Below, piece by piece: positions 28,576 through 58,925 of a stretch of 64,000 nucleotides of DNA; the stretch's first letter is position 1, and every line of letters starts with the position of its first letter. The notes beneath the pieces were generated by a model. The model did no database searches. It was not told the DNA's origin and saw only the letters and a program-made list of their open reading frames with translations. The stretch comes from Methanolinea mesophila (GTDB taxonomy: Archaea > Halobacteriota > Methanomicrobia > Methanomicrobiales > Methanospirillaceae), in contig NZ_JAGGKR010000001.1 in the NCBI RefSeq assembly GCF_017873855.1, positions 930,001-994,000 of the forward strand. Direction: 5' to 3'. The position numbers and the translations under genes were made by a program.

Positions 28576-28686
28576 CCTATCCCCGGTCATTGAATTCGCC
28601 TCTTATAATGTTGAATTTCGTCCCCCATTTGACATATCTCAATCCTCACCGATAATCTCTCAACATTAACGTATATGCCACGAGAC
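28576..28686 (+). repeat. Direct repeat, copy 1 (111 bp)
   Basis: Starts CCTATCCCCGGTCATTGAAT and ends CGAGAC. It matches copy 2 at 28706-28817 with only a handful of changes and one indel, after a 19-bp spacer. It contains TCTTATAATGTTGA, which resembles a TATA element, and a CAACATTAACGTATATGCC end. No coding frame. Confidence 0.85.
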
Positions 28687-28705
28687 TCGCCACCCTGGCG
28701 AAATT

Positions 28706-28817
28706 CCTATCTCCGGTCATTGAATTCGCCTCTTATAGTGTTGAATTTCGTTCCCTCATTTGACATATCTCAATCCTCACCGATAATCTCTCAACATTAA
28801 CGTATATGCCGCGAGAC
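28706..28817 (+). repeat. Direct repeat, copy 2 (112 bp)
   Basis: Near-identical second copy of the 111-bp element (see 28576-28686), ending about 160 bp before the YdjM-like gene. The rest of the 606-bp gap from 28373 shows no gene. The pair could be a duplicated promoter/operator or a mobile-element scar. Confidence 0.85.
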
Positions 28818-31685: not shown

Positions 31686-32765
31686 ATGAAAAATATCGGA
31701 ATATTTGCCATTACTCCTGCTCAAATTCATTTTTATAGAAACATCATTTGCGAGTTGAATAAAAAGGATACTAATACATATTTGTTGGTTAGAGATTATG
31801 GCGAAACAATCCAGTTGGTAAAAGAATTTGAGATGCCACACTTCATTTTTTCAAGACCTCCTGACTCAAAATATGGAAAAATCCTCAATTTGCCCAAAGA
31901 GGTGCTTACGGCCTACAAATATCTTAGAGAGAAAAATGTTGATCTTGTCACGGGATTCGGTATATACGAGTCTTTCACTTCTGCATTACTCAATGTCCCT
32001 GCCATCACATTCACGGATTCTGAATATTCGGTCAACGCCTTCACATACGTAATTCAATTTTACATATCTTCATTATTCACAGACAAGTACATCACCCCCA
32101 CATCGTTTAAACAGGACTTAGGGAAGAAACAAATCCGGGTAAATTCCTTCAAGGAACTTGCATATCTCCACCCGAAATATTACCATCCGGATGATTCCAT
32201 TTTTCCGTTACTTGGACTTTCCAAAGGAGAACCCTACATTCTTATCCGGTTCAACGCGTTTGATGCAGTACATGATTTTGGGGTAACCGGCTTTTCTCTT
32301 GAAGAGAAAATAGAAATGGTCAGGAGCCTTGAAAAACACATGCGTGTATTTATTTCATCCGAGGGATCCTTACCTGAGGAATTGTGTAAATACCAGGTTA
32401 GAATACCGAAAAACAGAATACACGATGCCATCTACTTTGCCAGCCTGGTGATAACGGATACCCAGACGATGGCCACTGAGGGCGCAATACTTGGTACACC
32501 TACAATCCGATGCAATGGCTTTGTAGGATCGGCAGACATGGGAAATTTCATCGAACTGGAGCGTAGATATGGACTTTTGTATAACTTTTCAAAATATGAA
32601 GAAATATCACCATCCAGTAAAAAAATTATCCAAAATCCAAATTCCAAGATAGAATGTCAAAGAAAAAGGGAGATTCTGTTAAACGAGAAAGAGAATATTA
32701 CTGATTTAATTTCGCAAATATTGATTCATTCGGTTAAATTGGAGAATACCCCCTATGCAATTTAA
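31686..32765 (+). CDS. DUF354 family protein (GT-B fold glycosyltransferase/epimerase-like)
   Basis: A 359-aa protein of the DUF354 family, which folds like UDP-GlcNAc 2-epimerase and GT-B glycosyltransferases. It opens IGIFAITPAQIHFYRNII with the family's His after the first strand. It contains VDLVTGFGIYES and the C-terminal donor-site-like region SLVITDTQTMATEGAILGTP, similar to the TDSGG region of 2-epimerases. DUF354 genes are common in archaeal and bacterial glycan loci, but no biochemistry is established. Its stop overlaps the PaaK-like gene by 11 nt, so the products are probably made together. Confidence 0.82.
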   Translation: MKNIGIFAITPAQIHFYRNIICELNKKDTNTYLLVRDYGETIQLVKEFEMPHFIFSRPPDSKYGKILNLPKEVLTAYKYLREKNVDLVTGFGIYESFTSALLNVPAITFTDSEYSVNAFTYVIQFYISSLFTDKYITPTSFKQDLGKKQIRVNSFKELAYLHPKYYHPDDSIFPLLGLSKGEPYILIRFNAFDAVHDFGVTGFSLEEKIEMVRSLEKHMRVFISSEGSLPEELCKYQVRIPKNRIHDAIYFASLVITDTQTMATEGAILGTPTIRCNGFVGSADMGNFIELERRYGLLYNFSKYEEISPSSKKIIQNPNSKIECQRKREILLNEKENITDLISQILIHSVKLENTPYAI

Positions 32766-34128
32766 GTTCTCGGACAATTTTATCAGAAGAAATATTTTCA
32801 TGTTCTCACATAATCTCATTGATAAATCTTTTTCTTCCGAATATTACAGATTACAAAAAAACCAATGGGAACCCAGAGGAGAATTAATTCGTCAGCAGGA
32901 AAAAAATTTAAGAGCGATTATTAAATATTCCTACGAAAATGTGCCATATTATTCAAAATTATTTAAAAAATTAGATTTAAAGGTTAATGATATATCAAGA
33001 ATAGAGGATCTCAATAAGATACCGATTCTCACGAAAGACATTATTAAAAAGAATTGGGAGGATTTCAAACCAGTTAACCTTGAAAGACTTAAATATTCAG
33101 AACGATCCACAGGAGGCTCAACTGGCACCCCCTTTCGTTATCGCTTATCAAATAATGACAGATATTTATCAGGGGCTCTACTCTACCGAGGTTGGAGCTA
33201 TGCTGGATACCAACCTGGAGATAAAATGGTTTTCTTTGGAGGTTCCTCAATCAATGGTCAAGATACTACTTCTTTAAAATCTAAAGTTCTTGAAGGCGTT
33301 CGGAATATTAAAAAGTTTTCAGCATTTGATATGAAAGAAAACGATTTGAAAAACTATCACACTAAAATCAGGAAGTTCAGACCAAAGTACATATATGGAT
33401 ATCCTTCAGCATTATTTGAATTTGCAAATTGGCTTGAGATCCATGATTTACCTGTTAGAAATGACTTAATTAGTATTTTCACAACTTCGGAAAAAATCTA
33501 TCCACATATGCGCAATAAAATCGAAGAGGTTTTTGATTGCAAAATATGTGATTGTTACGGGTTAAATGATGGTGGGGTCAGTGCGTTTGAATGCACCGAA
33601 CATACTGGCCTTCACCTCGATACCGAAAGGAGTATAATTGAGCTAGCGGATGATTGCGAGTCATCAATTGAAAATGGCGAGGGCAGAATTATCACTACGA
33701 GTCTTAAAAATTTTGCAATGCCGTTTATTCGATATGATACCGGAGATCTTGGTTCTGTAACTGATGAAGAGTGTAACTGTGGGAGGCAGTATAGAAGTTT
33801 AAAGGAGCTGATCGGCCGAAGCGTTGACATATTAATAGCCCCAGATGGAAAGAAGGTTCATGGATGGTTTTTTCTTTATATATTTTGGGAAGTTTTTAAA
33901 GGGATTCAGGAATATCAGGTTGTTCAAAATTCCGTTAATACAATCACTATTAATATCGTACCCGAGCAGGAATTCAAGGATAATAATTTGGAAATTATTA
34001 GGTCAATAATTGAGGGAAAATGTCCTTATTGGGACGTAGAATTTAATATTGTCGATAATATCCCAAAATCAGGATCAGGGAAATATAAATTCATTATTAA
34101 CAAAGTGAATGGCGGAAATGAAAATTAG
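32755..34128 (+). CDS. PaaK/CapK-like adenylate-forming ligase
   Basis: A 457-aa member of the ANL superfamily, phenylacetate-CoA-ligase branch. The AMP-binding P-loop is SERSTGGSTGTPFRY (about residue 118). It also has a DCYGLNDGG motif (A5 region, about 265), RYDTGDLG and the C-terminal lysine region SGSGKYKF. A Cys cluster (EECNCGRQY) near 345 is common in this branch. It likely activates a carboxylate as an acyl-adenylate and passes it to an amine, thiol or hydroxyl, here presumably to decorate a sugar with an acyl or aminoacyl group. GGAG lies 10 nt before the ATG at 32755, which overlaps the DUF354 stop. The actual acid and acceptor are unknown. Confidence 0.85.
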   Translation: MQFKFSDNFIRRNIFMFSHNLIDKSFSSEYYRLQKNQWEPRGELIRQQEKNLRAIIKYSYENVPYYSKLFKKLDLKVNDISRIEDLNKIPILTKDIIKKNWEDFKPVNLERLKYSERSTGGSTGTPFRYRLSNNDRYLSGALLYRGWSYAGYQPGDKMVFFGGSSINGQDTTSLKSKVLEGVRNIKKFSAFDMKENDLKNYHTKIRKFRPKYIYGYPSALFEFANWLEIHDLPVRNDLISIFTTSEKIYPHMRNKIEEVFDCKICDCYGLNDGGVSAFECTEHTGLHLDTERSIIELADDCESSIENGEGRIITTSLKNFAMPFIRYDTGDLGSVTDEECNCGRQYRSLKELIGRSVDILIAPDGKKVHGWFFLYIFWEVFKGIQEYQVVQNSVNTITINIVPEQEFKDNNLEIIRSIIEGKCPYWDVEFNIVDNIPKSGSGKYKFIINKVNGGNEN

Positions 34129-35191
34129 AATTTGTGCTGTTGGAGATATAATGTTGGGTGAACATCCATTATGCATAAATTTTGGTGTTAAAAGCAGTAT
34201 TGATAGAAATGGGTTTAATTATTTGATTTCTGAGATTATCCCAACTCTTCAAAATTCTGATTTCACAATAGGTAATTTAGAAACTCCTTTTATAAAAGAT
34301 CCAAAAAAACGAATAAATAATTATTTTTATTCTGAATCAAAAAATGTATCCACTTTGAAAGAGAATAATTTTAATCTTCTTTCGATAGCGAATAATCACA
34401 TAATGGAACAAGGGAAAGAGGGATTTCATGATACAATAACAGCTTTACAAAATTATAATATTACCCCACTCGGCCTTAAAAATCAAAAATATATTATCAA
34501 GAAAAATGGCCTTAATCTTGCCTTTTTGGCATACTCCCTTATTGAGGATTTTAAAGATGATGGATTATATAATAAACTAAATTCTTATTCTCAAATTATC
34601 ACAGATATTCATGAAATTAGACCAAATTCTGATATTGTTATAATATTACTCCATTGGGGTGATGAATACGTTCCAAAGCCATCTTTATCTCAAATCGAGA
34701 TGGGACGAAGAATAATAAATGAAGGCGCAGATATTATTATCGGAAGTCATCCTCATGTTTTACAAGGTTATGAAGAATATAATGATAAATTAATTATTTA
34801 CAGTTTGGGAAATTTTATTTTTGATATGAAATATATAAAAAAAACGCTAAATTCAGCAGTTGCGCTAATTGAAATCGATGAAGAATGTAATATTTCTTTG
34901 AAATTTTTACCGATAACGTGTAACCCCAATGATTTTTCTTTGAAAATAGCTAATGGAAAAGAATATACTCAAATCTCTGATTCTCTTTACAAGATTTCGA
35001 AATTTTTATCGAATAATTTCTTTGATTCAAAGAAATATCAAAATAATTATGAGAAGAATAAAAATAAATCTGCATTTTTTGCTAAACTAAGTATGATTTT
35101 TCATTTTATTAAAAACTATACTAAATATCCTTCAATTAATAGAAATCAGATAATAATTAATTTTTTAAAAAAAAATAGGTGTCGAAAATGA
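34118..35191 (+). CDS. CapA/PgsA-like metallophosphatase family protein
   Basis: A 357-aa protein of the CapA family (calcineurin-like fold). Metal-binding motifs are clear: ICAVGDIMLGEH near the start, IGNLETPF, LSIANNHIMEQG, VIILLHWGDEY, IIGSHPHVLQG and YSLGNFIFD. There is no signal peptide or anchor helix, unlike Bacillus CapA, so this copy should be cytoplasmic. CapA is needed for poly-gamma-glutamate capsule in Bacillus, but its reaction is unsettled. Position directly after an adenylate-forming ligase suggests the two act on the same acyl/aminoacyl-modified product. I prefer ATG 34118, where family proteins start (MKIRICAVGD); ATG 34109 is also in frame. Confidence 0.88.
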   Translation: MKIRICAVGDIMLGEHPLCINFGVKSSIDRNGFNYLISEIIPTLQNSDFTIGNLETPFIKDPKKRINNYFYSESKNVSTLKENNFNLLSIANNHIMEQGKEGFHDTITALQNYNITPLGLKNQKYIIKKNGLNLAFLAYSLIEDFKDDGLYNKLNSYSQIITDIHEIRPNSDIVIILLHWGDEYVPKPSLSQIEMGRRIINEGADIIIGSHPHVLQGYEEYNDKLIIYSLGNFIFDMKYIKKTLNSAVALIEIDEECNISLKFLPITCNPNDFSLKIANGKEYTQISDSLYKISKFLSNNFFDSKKYQNNYEKNKNKSAFFAKLSMIFHFIKNYTKYPSINRNQIIINFLKKNRCRK

Positions 35192-36306
35192 AAATTTTAC
35201 TTTCGATTGGGCTCGCAGACCGCTCAATGCAGCATCACATTGCACCTCTAGCAAACGTTGACAAAATTTCTGAAATACTTGTTGTACGAGGATCTGAAGG
35301 TCCGAATATTCCTAAGGTCAAGTATTTTTGTCCCCCAGTTTTTTTTAGAGATAATTCATTTTTTAAAACTGTATTTAAATACATTTTACTGTATAAAGTT
35401 GCTTTAACCGAGAAACCGAATTATATTCATGGATTTATGTTTTTCCCTGATGGTTTAATGTGTTTAACAATTGGAAAGTTATTACATATTAAAACCGGTG
35501 TTTCATTAATAGCAGGACCGGTCGAAATTTACAAACCAGGAAGAAGTCCGATAAATAAATATTCATATACGAAGACATTACCCAAAATTACTGGGATTAC
35601 TAGGTTTTATAAATGGCTATTAGAAAAATTTGATTTCATTACATGTACAGGAACTTTTACGTCTGATTTTTTAATAAATCACCAAATTAGAAATGATAAG
35701 ATTTACATCGTACCACATATTGTTGATAGCAGGTTTCAAAAACAAATTGCATCTGAAAAAATATTTGATATCATATATATCGGAAGACTTGCACCAGTTA
35801 AACATTTGGAAAAAACTATTGATATAATTAACATGATAAAAAAAGAAATTCCTGAAATTTCTACAGCTATAATTGGAACAGGTCCTCAAGAAGAAGAATT
35901 GAAACAAATATCTAAACAAATGAACTTAGAAAATACAATTCATTTCCTTGGGTATAAGGAAGATGTCTGGAATTGGTATAATTTAGCGAAAATTTCAATA
36001 TTAAATTCTGAAAGGGAAGGTTTCCCATATTCGGTTATTGAATCATTAAGCTGCGGAGTACCTGTAATCACTTCAAATTGCGGCGATGTCTCAGATGTAA
36101 TTGTAAATAAATATAATGGAATTATAATTAATGATAATGAGGATATAAAATCATTCAGTAAAGCGTTTATTGACCTTCTTAAAGATGACGAATTATTAGA
36201 AGAAATCAGCGATAATGCTTTAAAAAGTTCTAAAGATTATAGTGACCTTTCAGCGACAAACGTCTGGAAAGATCTGTTATATCAAAAGGTTTTACAAAAA
36301 AGGTGA
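35188..36306 (+). CDS. GT4 glycosyltransferase
   Basis: A 372-aa cytoplasmic GT-B glycosyltransferase. The C-terminal donor domain begins IIYIGRLAPVKHLEKTI and contains the family's glutamates in NSEREGFPYSVIESLSCG (EX7E-like). ATG 35188 overlaps the capA stop (ATGA) and is preceded by AGGTG 6 nt away; a GTG 9 nt upstream is less likely. The stop overlaps the next gene (GTGA). Strongly AT-rich codon use (many AAA, ATA, AAT) like its neighbours. Sugar and linkage unknown. Confidence 0.88.
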   Translation: MKILLSIGLADRSMQHHIAPLANVDKISEILVVRGSEGPNIPKVKYFCPPVFFRDNSFFKTVFKYILLYKVALTEKPNYIHGFMFFPDGLMCLTIGKLLHIKTGVSLIAGPVEIYKPGRSPINKYSYTKTLPKITGITRFYKWLLEKFDFITCTGTFTSDFLINHQIRNDKIYIVPHIVDSRFQKQIASEKIFDIIYIGRLAPVKHLEKTIDIINMIKKEIPEISTAIIGTGPQEEELKQISKQMNLENTIHFLGYKEDVWNWYNLAKISILNSEREGFPYSVIESLSCGVPVITSNCGDVSDVIVNKYNGIIINDNEDIKSFSKAFIDLLKDDELLEEISDNALKSSKDYSDLSATNVWKDLLYQKVLQKR

Positions 36307-37865
36307 TTAAAATTTTAATATCCCGCTCACGGGCAAATAAAGTTACTTTAATTTTATTTTTTTTATCAATTTGTATTCCATTATTAATGTTCAATGGAAC
36401 AATAGATGATTTTGTTCCAAAACAAATTGTTAATGTTCAAGAAACTTTTAATTATGGTACATTAGTCGAATTTTCAGGTCATACAATTCAAGTTCCAGGA
36501 TTTAATATTTATGGTGCAATAATTTTAAATCTTACGGGAATGTCTTCAGAAAATTTAATTTTTTTCCCTTTTCAGTTATTTCCTTATACAGTTATTTTTT
36601 TCACAATTATATATCTAATTTCAGATAATGGGATAATTGCCGGTAGTATTACATTAATCACAATGATCTCAGGGTCAACAGGAACGACCACAATTTTCTT
36701 CTGGCCACATGGCATTGGATATATTCTATTTTTTACATTTTTAATTCTTATTTACGTTTTATTCAAAAATAAAAATTTTAAACCTGTAGTTTTAATAGCT
36801 ACAATTACAGGTTCAGCTCTTGTTTATATTTCTTACAATTTAATGGCGGTCTCATTAATCTTAATTGCGACGATAGTTGTTTTTTTATTTATATATATAA
36901 CAACAAATAAAAAAATATATTTTCAGAATAAAAATTCGTTAAAGATTTTTACAATTTTGTTTTTAGTGTTAGCAATAGTCGAATTAGGACTGTCAAAATT
37001 TGTCTATGGAGTTTTTATTCCCACGATACAATCTGCTCAGGAATTAGATCTTAGCGGTTTAGATAAATTTCTACAGGCCTATTTTAATTCAAATATTTCC
37101 TCATCTCCGATCAATGTTTTACTTCTCCAATTCCCTTCAATAATTTCAATTATCAGCGGTATTAAATATTCAATAATTGTTTTATCTATTGCATTATTTA
37201 TATCATATTTTATCTTCAATAGGATTCGTAAAACGGAGCTGACTTTCCAACATCTTTTTTTATTAGCCTTTATCGCGACCTTTTTAATTTATATGATTCC
37301 AAGATATTATATTGGAGGTGTGGTCATTACCTTACTATGGCTACCAGGAATATTCTGTATCGCCCATTTTTATCGTTTTTCAAATACATTTAAACTATTC
37401 GCAACCATATCAATTGTAATAATAGCCGGATGTGTAATAACATATTATTATACGATGGATGAATATAATTATATAAATCATAATGATTACAACACTAAAT
37501 TATATAAAATTCCTGCAAAATGGCTAATTACATATTCTAATGAAAATCCTACAGTTTCAGATGAGCTGACAAAAAATTTTCTGATCTTTTATACATATAA
37601 AGAATTTGGTTATTCTAAGGATTCTCTATATGAAATAACTCAAAAAAATGGTTTAATTTTAAGTAAGGATGCTCTAAGTCTGACCCAGTTATCTAATAAT
37701 CCCACGGAAAATAGCTATTTTGTACTAAATGATAAATTGCCTCAATTAAGCCTCCAAAATTGGATTGTCATTAAACCATGGAAAAATTACGAACTCCAAA
37801 TTGATAGCAATCAAAAAATTAATAAAATCTATTCAATTCCGCTTTTATCAATTTATTATTCATAA
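36303..37865 (+). CDS. Polytopic membrane protein, possible GT-C or polymerase
   Basis: A 520-aa protein with roughly ten to twelve hydrophobic segments, an outer loop after helix 1 (GTIDDFVPKQIVNVQETF) and a soluble C-terminal tail of about 130 residues. The acidic pair in the first outer loop recalls GT-C glycosyltransferases, and the overall plan also fits Wzy-like polymerases; I cannot decide between them. It starts at GTG 36303, overlapping the preceding stop by 4 nt, and closes the operon that began at 30539. It probably joins or extends the lipid-linked glycan made by the upstream enzymes. Confidence 0.6.
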   Translation: MIKILISRSRANKVTLILFFLSICIPLLMFNGTIDDFVPKQIVNVQETFNYGTLVEFSGHTIQVPGFNIYGAIILNLTGMSSENLIFFPFQLFPYTVIFFTIIYLISDNGIIAGSITLITMISGSTGTTTIFFWPHGIGYILFFTFLILIYVLFKNKNFKPVVLIATITGSALVYISYNLMAVSLILIATIVVFLFIYITTNKKIYFQNKNSLKIFTILFLVLAIVELGLSKFVYGVFIPTIQSAQELDLSGLDKFLQAYFNSNISSSPINVLLLQFPSIISIISGIKYSIIVLSIALFISYFIFNRIRKTELTFQHLFLLAFIATFLIYMIPRYYIGGVVITLLWLPGIFCIAHFYRFSNTFKLFATISIVIIAGCVITYYYTMDEYNYINHNDYNTKLYKIPAKWLITYSNENPTVSDELTKNFLIFYTYKEFGYSKDSLYEITQKNGLILSKDALSLTQLSNNPTENSYFVLNDKLPQLSLQNWIVIKPWKNYELQIDSNQKINKIYSIPLLSIYYS

Positions 37866-38076
37866 ATTGGCACGGGACTATCCTGTACAATTTTTTATCC
37901 GAAATCAGGAGAATTCCCTGTTACCTCGAAGATTATTCTTCAATAACAGGAATCCGCGGGTCAATTGTACCTTCACCGTATTCTATTACAAAAGTACAGG
38001 GAAAATATAGGGAGATGATAAAATAGAAACGATAAATTTCCTCCATTTTTTGATTTCCTGCCGAAGGAAATCCAGA

Positions 38077-38298
38077 TCAGCTTAATATAAGGCATTTTGA
38101 GGGACTCATATTTTCGGGGTCTGGCCAGTAATAGATATATGTTTCAGATTTTCTAGCATGAGATAAAAGTGATCTCACGATAATTCCATTCGAAATTTTT
38201 ATTTTGTAGACAATAATCGGGAGTTTACCGTCTGTTCTCACATTATGAGAGCTTGAACCGTAAAATAGGTGGAAAAGAAAGCATTCCTCATGCCAGAC
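38077..38298 (-). pseudogene. Gene remnant, 73 codons without a start
   Basis: The 671-bp gap 37866-38536 has no intact gene. On the minus strand, a frame open from 38298 to a TGA at 38077 reads as natural protein (for example YGSSSHNVRTDGKLPIIVYK and YYWPDPENMSPSK) but has no start codon or ribosome-binding site. It looks like the C-terminal piece of a lost gene of unknown family. A second coding-like stretch may lie at about 37866-38010 on the plus strand. Confidence 0.4.
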
Positions 38299-38536
38299 CT
38301 AACCAGTGTAGAATCATGATATTAGGTTATACATACAACTCAATAGAATAAATCAATCAATATGCAATCCCAGAGAAATCGCTATTCAGCAGTCATCAGG
38401 AATCCTTCATCTATTGTTTTTCTGAACCGCGTGTTAATACCAGCCTTTGTATTACTACCGCTAAAATGTATTCCCTCAGGGTTATTTACAATAGATATAT
38501 ATTATCTAATATCATAAATAATTATTATCGATTAAT

Positions 38537-39286
38537 ATGACAGAAAATATCAAATACTTTATTTGTGGATTATGGAGATTAAAAACTATCCAAAAATGGA
38601 TTAACCATCATTATAATGATAATGAGAATTTAATCATTGATAGCAAGTACTTTCCCTATGTGGTCACAAAGAATGGGGAAATATTCTCTAATAGTTCCCA
38701 GATTTACACGGTTAAACAAGCAATGACAGATTATATTTTAGATGATATTCAAAAGGATGATATTGTAATAGATATCGGGGCAAATGTAGGTGGATTTTGC
38801 ATCCCTGCAGCGAAGTTATCTAATTATGTTTATGCAATCGAACCCATAACAACTGACGAATTACGTCATAATATTAGTAAAAATAATTTGAATGTGAGGG
38901 TTATCGAAGGTGGTCTTGGAAATGGAATGCCTTCTGAAGTTATTTGGAATAAAAAGAAAACCGTTAAAACATATACCTTCGCCCAAATAAAGTCTATATG
39001 TGGAGGATGTGATTTTTTAAAATGTGACTGTGAGGGCTTCGAATGGTTTATCCGTCCAAGCGAATTAGAGGGCATAAGACGATTAGAGATGGAGATTCAT
39101 AATTTTAACCCATCACCTAATGACCCAACTATACTTATAAATGGGATACTGAATGAATTTAATATTTCGTTAAATTCTATGTTTTTCAAGAAAAGTGATG
39201 ATTTTTTTAAGTTTAAATTCAAAAAAAATATTAACCGAATAGGAGAAATCGATGAAGTTGCCATACTACATGGAAATCGAAAATAA
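38537..39286 (+). CDS. FkbM family SAM-dependent methyltransferase
   Basis: A 249-aa protein with a Rossmann methyltransferase core: SAM-binding VIDIGANVGGFCIPAAKL (about residues 75-92), acidic loop YAIEPIT, and the FkbM signature FLKCDCEGFEWFI (about 155-167) followed by EMEIHNF. FkbM proteins O-methylate sugars or small molecules, here probably a glycan hydroxyl. Flanked by gaps with gene remnants, so it is likely a single acquired gene with its own promoter (AT-rich TATA-like sequence just upstream, around 38495-38530). Confidence 0.85.
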   Translation: MTENIKYFICGLWRLKTIQKWINHHYNDNENLIIDSKYFPYVVTKNGEIFSNSSQIYTVKQAMTDYILDDIQKDDIVIDIGANVGGFCIPAAKLSNYVYAIEPITTDELRHNISKNNLNVRVIEGGLGNGMPSEVIWNKKKTVKTYTFAQIKSICGGCDFLKCDCEGFEWFIRPSELEGIRRLEMEIHNFNPSPNDPTILINGILNEFNISLNSMFFKKSDDFFKFKFKKNINRIGEIDEVAILHGNRK

Positions 39287-39321
39287 ATTAAACATAAATG
39301 GTCTTGAAAAATGCTAAAGAT

Positions 39322-39338
39322 CCCCCTATTTTAGGGGG
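39322..39338 (+). terminator. Possible hairpin after the FkbM gene
   Basis: CCCCCTA-TTT-TAGGGGG, a 7-bp perfect stem 36 nt after the stop codon. No strong T-tract follows, so termination is only a guess. Confidence 0.35.
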
Positions 39339-39412
39339 TAATGAATAAAAATAATGATCCTAATTTAACCATTAAAAAATATCAGAATTAGAAAAGGCCA
39401 TTTGCTTCCTCA

Positions 39413-39517
39413 TCACCACTCAACCAATTGATTAAATGATAAATAGATTTGCTCTTCGATACTTGGTTGTGCTGATTTTTTATAATTCTTACCAGGTCTT
39501 AAATGATATAAATCTGG
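39413..39517 (-). pseudogene. Short C-terminal gene remnant in a 618-bp gap
   Basis: In the spacer 39287-39904 no intact gene is visible. On the minus strand a 34-codon frame (PDLYHLRPGKNYKK... ending QLVEW and TGA) reads like the end of a real protein. The frame upstream is full of stops. Family not recognised; a decayed transposase or glycan gene is possible. Confidence 0.35.
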
Positions 39518-39904
39518 CTATTAGAAATCTTGCTATTCTATTCCTATCGATTAGTGTAATTGGGCATATCAGATTCCTTTTTGTTCAAAGATAGTGTGTT
39601 TCAGCATTCCTCAAATCCCTTTTACCCTTTTTTATTTCAATGCCAGCAGGCTTTGTGAATATTCTGAATGATCTTGGAAATTAAATATTTCGATCTGTCA
39701 ATAGATTTTTATTTCAACTTAAATGCTCAATTTGAGGCTAATTTAGGCTGATTTCTCTTATTTTTCCCTTATCATGTCAATTATAGTACAATTTACCTGT
39801 TGAAAGGGTCTATCAGCCAAATTTTAACAGGTTCTTCATTATAGAAAAAATTATCAATTAATAATTGACAGATATTATATAATAGTTTTGAGAGCAGATT
39901 GAGA

Positions 39905-40978
39905 ATGAAAATCGCAATTGTAACGAGTTATTGGAAAAATAGCCAAGGTGGTGGTCTAAAAAATTATTTGATTAATCTAGTCGATATTTTTAAAAAAAAA
40001 GGATATAATGTAAGCGTTCTTTTTCGGGAAGGAGATGATCCACAACAATATCAGTGTGGAATAAATAAGATTTGGTTTTGTTTTAACTGTTATCGACATT
40101 TACGAAGGATTAAGCCTAGTGTAATTCATTCCCAAGGAGCATGGTTCTGTCTTTTCCCCAGTGTAGTTTATAAAAAAATCTATAAATGCAGACTTGTTCA
40201 TACGTTTCATACGGCGCCAACACAAAAACTATCAGTCCCAGCTAGGTTTTTTTTTCAATGGATTCTGAATAATTGTGACTGTATTACATTTGTCTCTAAA
40301 AGCCTACAACAACAAATTATTGAAATGGATAAATTAGTTGTATCTAGGACAAAAATTACCTATGCGGGAGTTCAACCCATCACAGTTACTGATGATGAGG
40401 TTAAATGGTTCCGAGAGCAGCATAATATCGATAAAGATGCAATTGTCCTTCTAGCGATCGGAATGACCGCTCTTTCATATAAGGCAGAAGGACTAAAAAA
40501 ACTAATAAGTGCTATCCACATACTTCGAGAGCGCTATCCAAATATTTTATTGATTGTTACACGAAACGCTAAATATTCAGAGGAATTGAGAGCTTTCTCA
40601 AATGAGTTAGGTATTAACAAACAACTTATTTTTATTGGAGATATAATTAACCCATTTGTTCCGCTGAAATTATGTAGTATTTATACACATACACCTTTGG
40701 GAGAGGGAGGGGTGTCATTGGCTGTTCTTGAGGCAATGTCTATGGGTAAACCAATTATTGCAACCAATGTAGGAGGAATTCCGGAAGCAATAGATGATGG
40801 GGTAAATGGGATACTCATCGAACCTGATTCAATTCAAATAGCAGCAAAAATTGACCTTCTTTTACAAAATAAAGAATATGCAGAAATGATAGGACAATTT
40901 GCGAGGAATACTGCAGAAAAAAATTTCAATTGGGAGAAGACTGCAGAACAATTTTTAAAAGCTTATTCAGGCCAATGA
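39905..40978 (+). CDS. GT4 glycosyltransferase
   Basis: A 357-aa GT-B glycosyltransferase. The N-terminal motif SYWKNSQGGGLKNYLINL binds the acceptor side; FVSKSLQQQI lies mid-protein. The donor domain has the EX7E motif in GVSLAVLEAMSMGKPIIATN followed by VGGIPEAIDDGVNGILI. ATG 39905 is preferred over TTG 39899. It stands alone between decayed regions and is AT-rich like the rest of the island. Likely transfers a hexose to a lipid-linked glycan. Confidence 0.88.
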   Translation: MKIAIVTSYWKNSQGGGLKNYLINLVDIFKKKGYNVSVLFREGDDPQQYQCGINKIWFCFNCYRHLRRIKPSVIHSQGAWFCLFPSVVYKKIYKCRLVHTFHTAPTQKLSVPARFFFQWILNNCDCITFVSKSLQQQIIEMDKLVVSRTKITYAGVQPITVTDDEVKWFREQHNIDKDAIVLLAIGMTALSYKAEGLKKLISAIHILRERYPNILLIVTRNAKYSEELRAFSNELGINKQLIFIGDIINPFVPLKLCSIYTHTPLGEGGVSLAVLEAMSMGKPIIATNVGGIPEAIDDGVNGILIEPDSIQIAAKIDLLLQNKEYAEMIGQFARNTAEKNFNWEKTAEQFLKAYSGQ

Positions 40979-57165: not shown

Positions 57166-57485
57166 ATATTTTCACCTTTATGGGGCAATTTTTATTGAGA
57201 GAGGGGTTTAAGTTCCAACTCTAAAAATTATCCTATTTAATCCAAATTCGAATCACTTAAGAGGGTTCGCACAATAATTCTGGATGCTATCCGGGGGGAG
57301 TACCAATTTTCAGTTATGTACCGGAAAGGGGCCAGGTACATTGTTTCGGGACAGCCCGGATTCTGTGAAAGGTACTGTGACAGCCCAAAATGCCTGTAAC
57401 CTGGAGGCAGAGCAGGAAAGTCTTGCAAATTAGGTTCTTTCTCCAGCGGGTACTTTTCGCTCAGGAAGATCCGGGAATTCAATGT
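57166..57485. other. Divergent spacer upstream of the CapF-like gene
   Basis: A 320-bp gap between the leftward GT2 and the rightward CapF-like gene. A 93-codon leftward frame (57237-57518) is fairly protein-like but has no ribosome-binding site, overlaps the CapF start and matches nothing I know. Probably promoter sequence, perhaps with a decayed gene. Confidence 0.4.
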
Positions 57486-58925
57486 ATGAAACACAGGGTA
57501 GGGATCACGGGCCGGCACGGGTTCCTTGGCACAAGTCTCGACAGGTATCTCCAGAGATATGAGGATGAGATCGAGGTAATCCCATTTTCCCGGGATATGT
57601 TCTCACAACCGCATGACCTGATTGAATTTTGCCGGAACTGCGATACAATCGTTCATTTTGCCGCGGTGACCCGGGGTGACGAAGAGGCCGTGTACCGGGT
57701 CAACATGGATCTCGTGCTATCACTCTGCTCGGCCCTCGAACATGTGGAACACGTTCCTCACGTGATATATGCCTCATCGGTGCATGAAACCCGGAACACC
57801 GGGTACGGGCGGTCGAAACGTGAGGGAAGGATGCTGCTGGAGGAATGGGCCCGGAAGAACGGGTCCCCCTTTACCGGCCTGGTGATCCCGAATGTCTTCG
57901 GCCCGTTCTGCCGCCCGTTCTACCTTTCCTTCATCGCAACCTTCTGTTACCAGCTCACTCACGGGCAGGAGGCAGAGATCCACGTCGATGCCCTCATGAA
58001 CCTGGTGTACGTGGAGGAGCTGATGGAACTGCTGGTATCCCTGATCCGTACAGGTCCGCAGGAGTCCTGCATCACCGTCCCGCCGGGCGGGGTATTCCTG
58101 GTCAGCGAAGTGCTCGAAAAACTGACCGGCTTTCGCGACCTGTACTGTGTCCAGGGGATTGTCCCCCCGCTGGACGAACCCTTCGACCGCAGACTTTTCA
58201 CCACGTTCCACTCGTACGTTGAGCCGGCCCATTTCCCGGTCCCCCTGGACGTTTCCCGAGAGGGGGATACAAGAGTCGCAGCACCGGGAGAGAAAGACAG
58301 AGAGGGGGTAGTCATCTCCATGCTGGCATCAGGAGGGGAGAAGGATCATGAGAAGGTTGTCATCTCCATGCTGGCATCAGGAGGCGAGAAGGACCGTGGA
58401 AAGGCCGTCGTCTCCATGCTGGCATCAGGAGGCGAGAAGGACCGTGGAAGGGCCGCGGTCTCCATGCTGGCATCAGGAGGCGAGAAGGATCGTGAGAGGG
58501 CCGCGGTCTCCATGCTGGCATCAGGAGGCGAGAAGGATCGTGGAAGGGCCATCACCTCCATGCTGGCATCAGGAGGTGAGAAGGATCGTGAGAGGGCCGC
58601 CGTCTCCGTGCTGGCACTTGGAGGTGAGAAGGATCGTGGAAGGGCCGTCGTTTCGGTGCTCGCACCGGGCAAACGCATGGGAAATCACTACCATGCCGAA
58701 ACATTCGAACGTCTCTCCATCCTCCAGGGGAATGCGTCCCTGCGGATGAGGAGGATCGACTCGGAGTGGGTCACCGAATACGACCTGGATGGAGATGCTC
58801 CGGGCTATATTGATATTCCGGTGTATCATACGCATGAAATCACAAATACCGGGGTCTCTGATCTCGTCACAGTGGTATGGAGCGATACGAGCGACGAACG
58901 GGATACCTTTTTTGAGACGATATGA
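57486..58925 (+). CDS. CapF-like bifunctional nucleotide-sugar reductase-cupin epimerase with inserted tandem repeats
   Basis: A 479-aa homologue of CapF, the enzyme that with CapE and CapG makes UDP-N-acetyl-L-fucosamine. Residues 1-250 are a short-chain dehydrogenase domain: GITGRHGFLGTSL, Tyr107/Lys111 in TGYGRSKREG, PNVFGPFCRPFYLSFIATFC. Residues about 388-479 are the cupin with GNHYH (His401, His403) and the ending typical of CapF. Between them, residues 276-387 are seven 16-residue repeats absent from normal CapF. Removing them leaves 367 aa, close to the usual length of about 370. Start ATG 57486. No CapE homologue is in the window; the 2-epimerase at 50676 could act as CapG. Whether the enzyme stays active is uncertain. 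Confidence 0.83.
   Translation: MKHRVGITGRHGFLGTSLDRYLQRYEDEIEVIPFSRDMFSQPHDLIEFCRNCDTIVHFAAVTRGDEEAVYRVNMDLVLSLCSALEHVEHVPHVIYASSVHETRNTGYGRSKREGRMLLEEWARKNGSPFTGLVIPNVFGPFCRPFYLSFIATFCYQLTHGQEAEIHVDALMNLVYVEELMELLVSLIRTGPQESCITVPPGGVFLVSEVLEKLTGFRDLYCVQGIVPPLDEPFDRRLFTTFHSYVEPAHFPVPLDVSREGDTRVAAPGEKDREGVVISMLASGGEKDHEKVVISMLASGGEKDRGKAVVSMLASGGEKDRGRAAVSMLASGGEKDRERAAVSMLASGGEKDRGRAITSMLASGGEKDRERAAVSVLALGGEKDRGRAVVSVLAPGKRMGNHYHAETFERLSILQGNASLRMRRIDSEWVTEYDLDGDAPGYIDIPVYHTHEITNTGVSDLVTVVWSDTSDERDTFFETI
58311..58646 (+). repeat. Seven in-frame 48-bp tandem repeats within the CapF-like gene
   Basis: Units start at 58311, 58359, 58407, 58455, 58503, 58551 and 58599. Each encodes a 16-residue unit close to VVSMLASGGEKDRGRA, with RGRA and RERA variants alternating. 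A degenerate half-unit precedes (58275-58310), and the native sequence VVSVLAPGKRMGNHYH follows at 58647. All units keep the reading frame. Confidence 0.95.

Follow-up and report, generated by a model that had tools for sequence, protein, structure and literature searches.

The CapF-like gene and its tandem array

The window, that is, the whole stretch of 64,000 nucleotides analysed here, contains the gene of a CapF homologue in which an array of tandem repeats lies between an SDR reductase domain and the remainder of a cupin domain (Table 1). An in-frame ATG is also found upstream, at 57390, while the start at 57486 fits that of the family. The CapF homology proposed in the initial annotation is supported by the Pfam domains PF01370 (SDR/epimerase, N-terminal) and PF14667 (Polysacc_synt_C cupin, C-terminal), by sequence matches in the PDB to the Staphylococcus aureus CapF structures 2zkl, 3st7, and 3vhr, and by the fold of the model, for which the best matches are CapF crystal structures (E = 1.2e-30 for 3st7). 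The score for NF047837 (CapF / UDP-2-acetamido-2,6-dideoxy-hexulose reductase), of 163.6 bits, does not reach the curated 500-bit cut-off, which is also missed by two array-free archaeal homologues tested (252.7 and 217.2 bits) that are located between capE and capG, or adjoin capG.

Table 1. Features of the CapF-like gene, with positions in the window.
Feature	Position	Strand	Remarks
CapF-like gene, 479 aa	57486..58925	+	SDR reductase, array, and cupin
SDR (Rossmann) domain	57486..58256	+	Conservation normal; TGxxGF, Ser, and YxxxK kept; pLDDT 91-98
Junction REGDTRVAAPG	58257..58289	+	Conserved D-[DNEP]-RG-x-x-x-E strand in the relatives
Seven extra 48-bp units	58290..58625 (starts 58290, 58338, 58386, 58434, 58482, 58530, 58578)	+	Frame kept; free of indels
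Eighth unit, corresponding to the native strand before GNHYH	58626..58673	+	Source-like copy
Remaining cupin	58674..58922	+	HxHxxxxE and later His retained; Lys, Phe, and NE-FDP segment gone

TRF recovers the array at 58311-58651, with a period of 48 bp, 7.1 copies, 88% matches, 0% indels, and a score of 477. In the CapF frame, the array is resolved into eight units of 16 residues (48 bp each), which cover 58290-58673 (384 bp) without indels. The first seven units are extra copies, in order EKDREGVVISMLASGG, EKDHEKVVISMLASGG, EKDRGKAVVSMLASGG, EKDRGRAAVSMLASGG, EKDRERAAVSMLASGG, EKDRGRAITSMLASGG, and EKDRERAAVSVLALGG, and the eighth (EKDRGRAVVSVLAPGK) is the native segment, which continues directly into RMGNHYH, the metal motif of the cupin. 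With a unit length of 48 bp, a multiple of three, the whole frame of 479 codons remains open through the array. The frame reading and TRF agree with the earlier description of seven extra in-frame units next to a native segment, and with a unit length divisible by three, and the array is confirmed as a real feature of the sequence. Its flanks are single-copy in the genome, and no flanking repeat was found. The protein was also expected to have the normal length of a CapF once the extra units are removed, and this holds, given that the one-unit version has 367 aa and the homologues are mostly of 365-395 aa.

Origin and divergence of the units

The placement of the units was evaluated with a CapF profile built from 85 homologues, in comparison with shuffled sequences. 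Unit 8 fits best at the native strand position before GNH, with a score of 8.5 bits, reached by 1.25% of the shuffles, which is weak in relation to the 34-40 bits obtained for five relatives. Units 1-7 have no significant match to this profile at any position. The array had been attributed to the duplication of a native beta-hairpin, and the strand before GNHYH does emerge as the source, through unit 8, while the hairpin does not, given that the unit is modelled as one strand and a loop. Unit 1, which MAFFT aligns with the lost first cupin strand, may replace this strand, although its score against the profile of the strand is not above chance.

The pairwise identity of the units ranges from 58% to 94%, being highest between adjoining units (94% for units 3-4 and 4-5) and lowest between the ends (58% for units 1-8), a pattern indicative of stepwise tandem duplication followed by time for divergence. 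The near identity of units that is typical of phase-variable repeats is not found at these values, and the divergence counts mildly against a frequent turnover of the array, as far as this can be read from the units themselves. Adjoining units do, nonetheless, share up to 46 bp of exact identity at a lag of 48. The variable positions are distributed over the three codon positions without bias (7/8/12, p = 0.46), and the pairwise pN/pS between units is 0.43-0.58, in comparisons that are not independent of one another, which makes a weak constraint possible.

Distribution among the homologues

A window search across 60 relatives yielded only one clear homologue, and a phylum-wide search of the family provided six more full-length sequences. 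Scanning genome contigs with an alignment added 80 further loci with named organisms; a search of the genome contigs with the window protein as the direct query found no relative. An array common to all the relatives, with the same seven units, which the initial annotation had named as evidence against its own reading, is ruled out, given that an insert between the SDR and cupin domains is found in none of the 86 CapF homologues, bacterial and archaeal, aligned with the window protein. The exceptions to the usual length of these homologues are open reading frames of 408, 434, and 656 aa, together with a truncated one of 275 aa, all with provisional ends, and their linkers have no insert. When the array was used as the query in 232 genomes of the order, the sole hits were the array itself and, weakly (E = 3.1e-4), an unrelated-looking phosphoesterase-like ORF, the latter judged to be due to chance.

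The archaeal homologues from the same order (G059, G277, G408, G199, and G364) are 45-48% identical to the window protein, with G059 and G277 being the closest by tree path. Unlike the window gene, they lack the array and are located inside capE-capF-capG clusters.

Divergence of the cupin domain

With the two domains compared separately, and the normal archaeal CapF of G059 as the reference, the SDR domain of the window protein has an identity of 48%, which is within the normal range and similar to that of many relatives. The identity of the cupin downstream of the array, by contrast, is 41%, the lowest of the 85 sequences, whereas the median cupin identity is 58% in the 32 sequences with a similar SDR identity. 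The identity of the strand region to the same reference is 31% versus 55%. The end branch of the window protein is the longest in the whole-protein tree and in the cupin tree (rank 1), where it has 7.1 times the median length; in the SDR tree it ranks third, at 2.5 times the median.

Of 60 near-invariant columns, 48 are kept and 12 are lost in the window protein, the fewest kept in any of the 51 sequences when the full array is included in the alignment, and a second alignment, with the one-unit version, retains 46 of 59. The losses include the Glu of the first strand, the Gln of the second strand, the Lys and Phe downstream of HxH, and the NE-FDP segment. At the junction, the Glu of the D-[DNEP]-RG-x-x-x-E strand is gone with either alignment. 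In S. aureus CapF, Lys285 and Phe297 line the cupin pocket and are reported contacts of a pocket inhibitor, and the naming of metal ligands in that protein covers His290 only (PMC5393024). Counted along the alignments, Lys285 corresponds to Met398 and Phe297 to Leu410 in the window protein. Judged by these comparisons of sequence, the whole cupin half is abnormal, while the SDR half is as conserved as in the relatives.

Other residues of both domains are kept. The SDR motif TGxxGF and the Ser, Tyr, and Lys are present in two alignments, and the metal site of the cupin is kept, with H401, H403, E408, and H450 being invariant across the aligned set, the window protein included. These four positions are presumed to be metal ligands on the basis of the general cupin motif. 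The alignment with the Staphylococcus protein that had been called for at the outset places the window protein beside S. aureus CapF (Cap5F; 2zkl, 3st7, 3vhr, and 4yrd), a bifunctional UDP-sugar C3-epimerase/C4-reductase, with which it shares the domain order, the fold, and the metal-ligand positions. The window protein differs from Cap5F in the seven extra units between the domains, the degenerate first cupin strands, the missing conserved pocket residues, and the absence of capE and capG from the neighborhood of its gene.

Genomic setting

Among the archaeal relatives that were read, capF adjoins capE and capG. In the present genome, the capE-like and capG-like genes are found at 485-488 kb of contig C1. 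The capF-like gene is approximately 0.5 Mb away, at 987 kb, among polysaccharide genes, with a glycosyltransferase gene on either side, these two being on opposite strands. The presence of capE-like and capG-like genes in the genome means that the substrate of a CapF-like enzyme could be made. The distant pair is directly preceded by an RmlD-like reductase gene, and this clustered pathway has another reductase candidate. The consecutive genes of this locus (L053:8648-11677; G000:C1:484.6-487.7 kb) encode the RmlD-like reductase, a capE/PseB-like dehydratase, and a capG/wecB-like epimerase, a trio that looks like a separate UDP-amino-sugar pathway. A literature search on WbvR/L-QuiNAc returned nothing relevant.

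In another genome (G097, L045:7314-8353), CapF is encoded by two adjoining, overlapping genes between capE and capG, one for the SDR and one for the cupin, so that the two domains are naturally separate. A low-GC island adjoins the polysaccharide genes, with a GC content of about 30-32% at 32000-40000 of the window, compared with 57.7% for 400 kb sampled from the genome.

Structure models

The AlphaFold2 model of the full protein, run with 50 homologues, has a pLDDT mostly of 88-98 in the SDR and cupin blocks, and mostly of 27-60 in the array, where the residues are mostly modelled as helices, some of them short, with unit 8 supplying a strand of the cupin. The array folded alone is modelled as eight strands, with a pLDDT of 76 (76.4) and a pTM of 0.70 in the best of five models, which range from 43.6 to 76.4. 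A fold search with this model returned no match with E < 0.07, and the array sequence has no match in the PDB. Given a report that AlphaFold2 assigns high confidence to unrealistic beta-solenoids when it models repeats (PMC11795689), neither model of the array is trustworthy.

Interpretation of the array

On balance, the array probably arose through an ordinary tandem duplication in frame, tolerated in a cupin on which selection is relaxed or altered. In this scenario, a CapF homologue would have left the capE-capF-capG cluster, with the cupin (epimerase) half coming under relaxed or changed selection and the SDR reductase half remaining constrained. A tandem duplication of the 48-bp stretch encoding the strand before the metal motif would have come first, followed by stepwise growth of the array through slippage or through unequal recombination of neighboring units. 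The array would have been tolerated either by a cupin for which the native geometry is no longer needed or through looping out of the insert. The epimerase activity may have been lost, and the array may be close to neutral. An ordinary origin is also likely given the other in-frame minisatellites of the genome, where a TRF survey of 20 sampled stretches (~0.5 Mb) found further arrays with periods divisible by three within long open frames. A number of observations count against the tolerated duplication, that is, the open frame of 479 codons, the confident AlphaFold2 fold of both domains, the survival of the metal-ligand positions and of the SDR Ser, Tyr, and Lys, and the pN/pS of the units, which is below 1 and hints at some constraint. 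The divergence of the cupin could also reflect a new substrate instead of decay, and, in a single genome, effects of the mutation rate or of a donor lineage may lie behind it. These same retained residues, together with the high-confidence cupin core in which unit 8 forms a strand, and the capE-like and capG-like genes elsewhere in the genome, would fit a working bifunctional CapF that receives the CapE product from the distant locus and has the array as a harmless surface loop between two cupin strands. This is rather unlikely, given the loss of the near-invariant cupin Glu, Gln, Lys, and Phe, the acceleration specific to the cupin, and partner genes that do not adjoin and have their own reductase candidate. 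It is improbable that the cupin has ceded its epimerase role to leave a plain SDR reductase, with the array as a spacer or solenoid and a UDP-amino-sugar different from that of the relatives.

Recruitment of the array as a structural element, either a beta-solenoid or a helical spacer, for oligomerization or binding, is equally improbable: the eight strands modelled for the isolated array and the pN/pS below 1 speak for it, but the full protein is modelled with low-confidence helices in this region, the isolated models vary widely, solenoids predicted for repeats may be unrealistic, and the fold and PDB searches found no counterpart. Still less probable is the reading in which cells or strains differ in the number of units, so that the enzyme, and hence a surface sugar, is tuned or switched. 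The gene is situated among polysaccharide genes, the exact identity between neighboring units is long enough for recombination, and in-frame repeat switches of enzymes are known, as in the mutL of Salmonella (PMC2955026), where the unit length also keeps the frame and a change in copy number would likewise alter the protein without a frameshift. The mutL units are short, however, and have been shown to change in number, whereas those of the window are of 48 bp and known from one genome, the only one of its genus covered. With their divergence they appear old, in contrast to a frequently renewed array, and they lie in a domain that has already lost conserved residues. In the promoter repeats of Mycobacterium tuberculosis (PMC12817950), as in the array, the number of units could change by recombination or slippage, but those repeats are in promoters and their variation is shown by long reads, while the present array is in a coding region of one genome. 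An assembly artefact is the least probable explanation. Tandem repeats are a known source of assembly errors (PMC6868369), and neighboring units have 46 bp in common, but the units all differ in sequence, the frame is uninterrupted, and the array is embedded in a contig of 2.38 Mb, so that the number of units could be off, while the existence of the array is hardly in error.

Under the tolerated duplication, the locus is a clear-cut example of a minisatellite that lies in frame within a conserved enzyme domain, with a source strand that can still be read and an insert absent from 86 homologues, and would link the tolerance of the insert to a domain of reduced constraint whose partner domain remains constrained. 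If the reductase half works alone, this would be a natural test of a two-step enzyme that loses one of its steps.

Other tandem repeats in the genome

A 131-bp tandem duplication (95% matches) is found at 28576-28817 of the window, in no open frame. Elsewhere on the same contig, a predicted secreted protein contains an in-frame repeat of 177 bp in 2.7 copies (L148:1201-1684; G000:C1), and another, with a dockerin-like end, has an in-frame repeat of 75 bp in 4.6 copies (L145:10402-10744; G000:C1), the unit of which is CPFEPTTPTGPVSPFPADSG.
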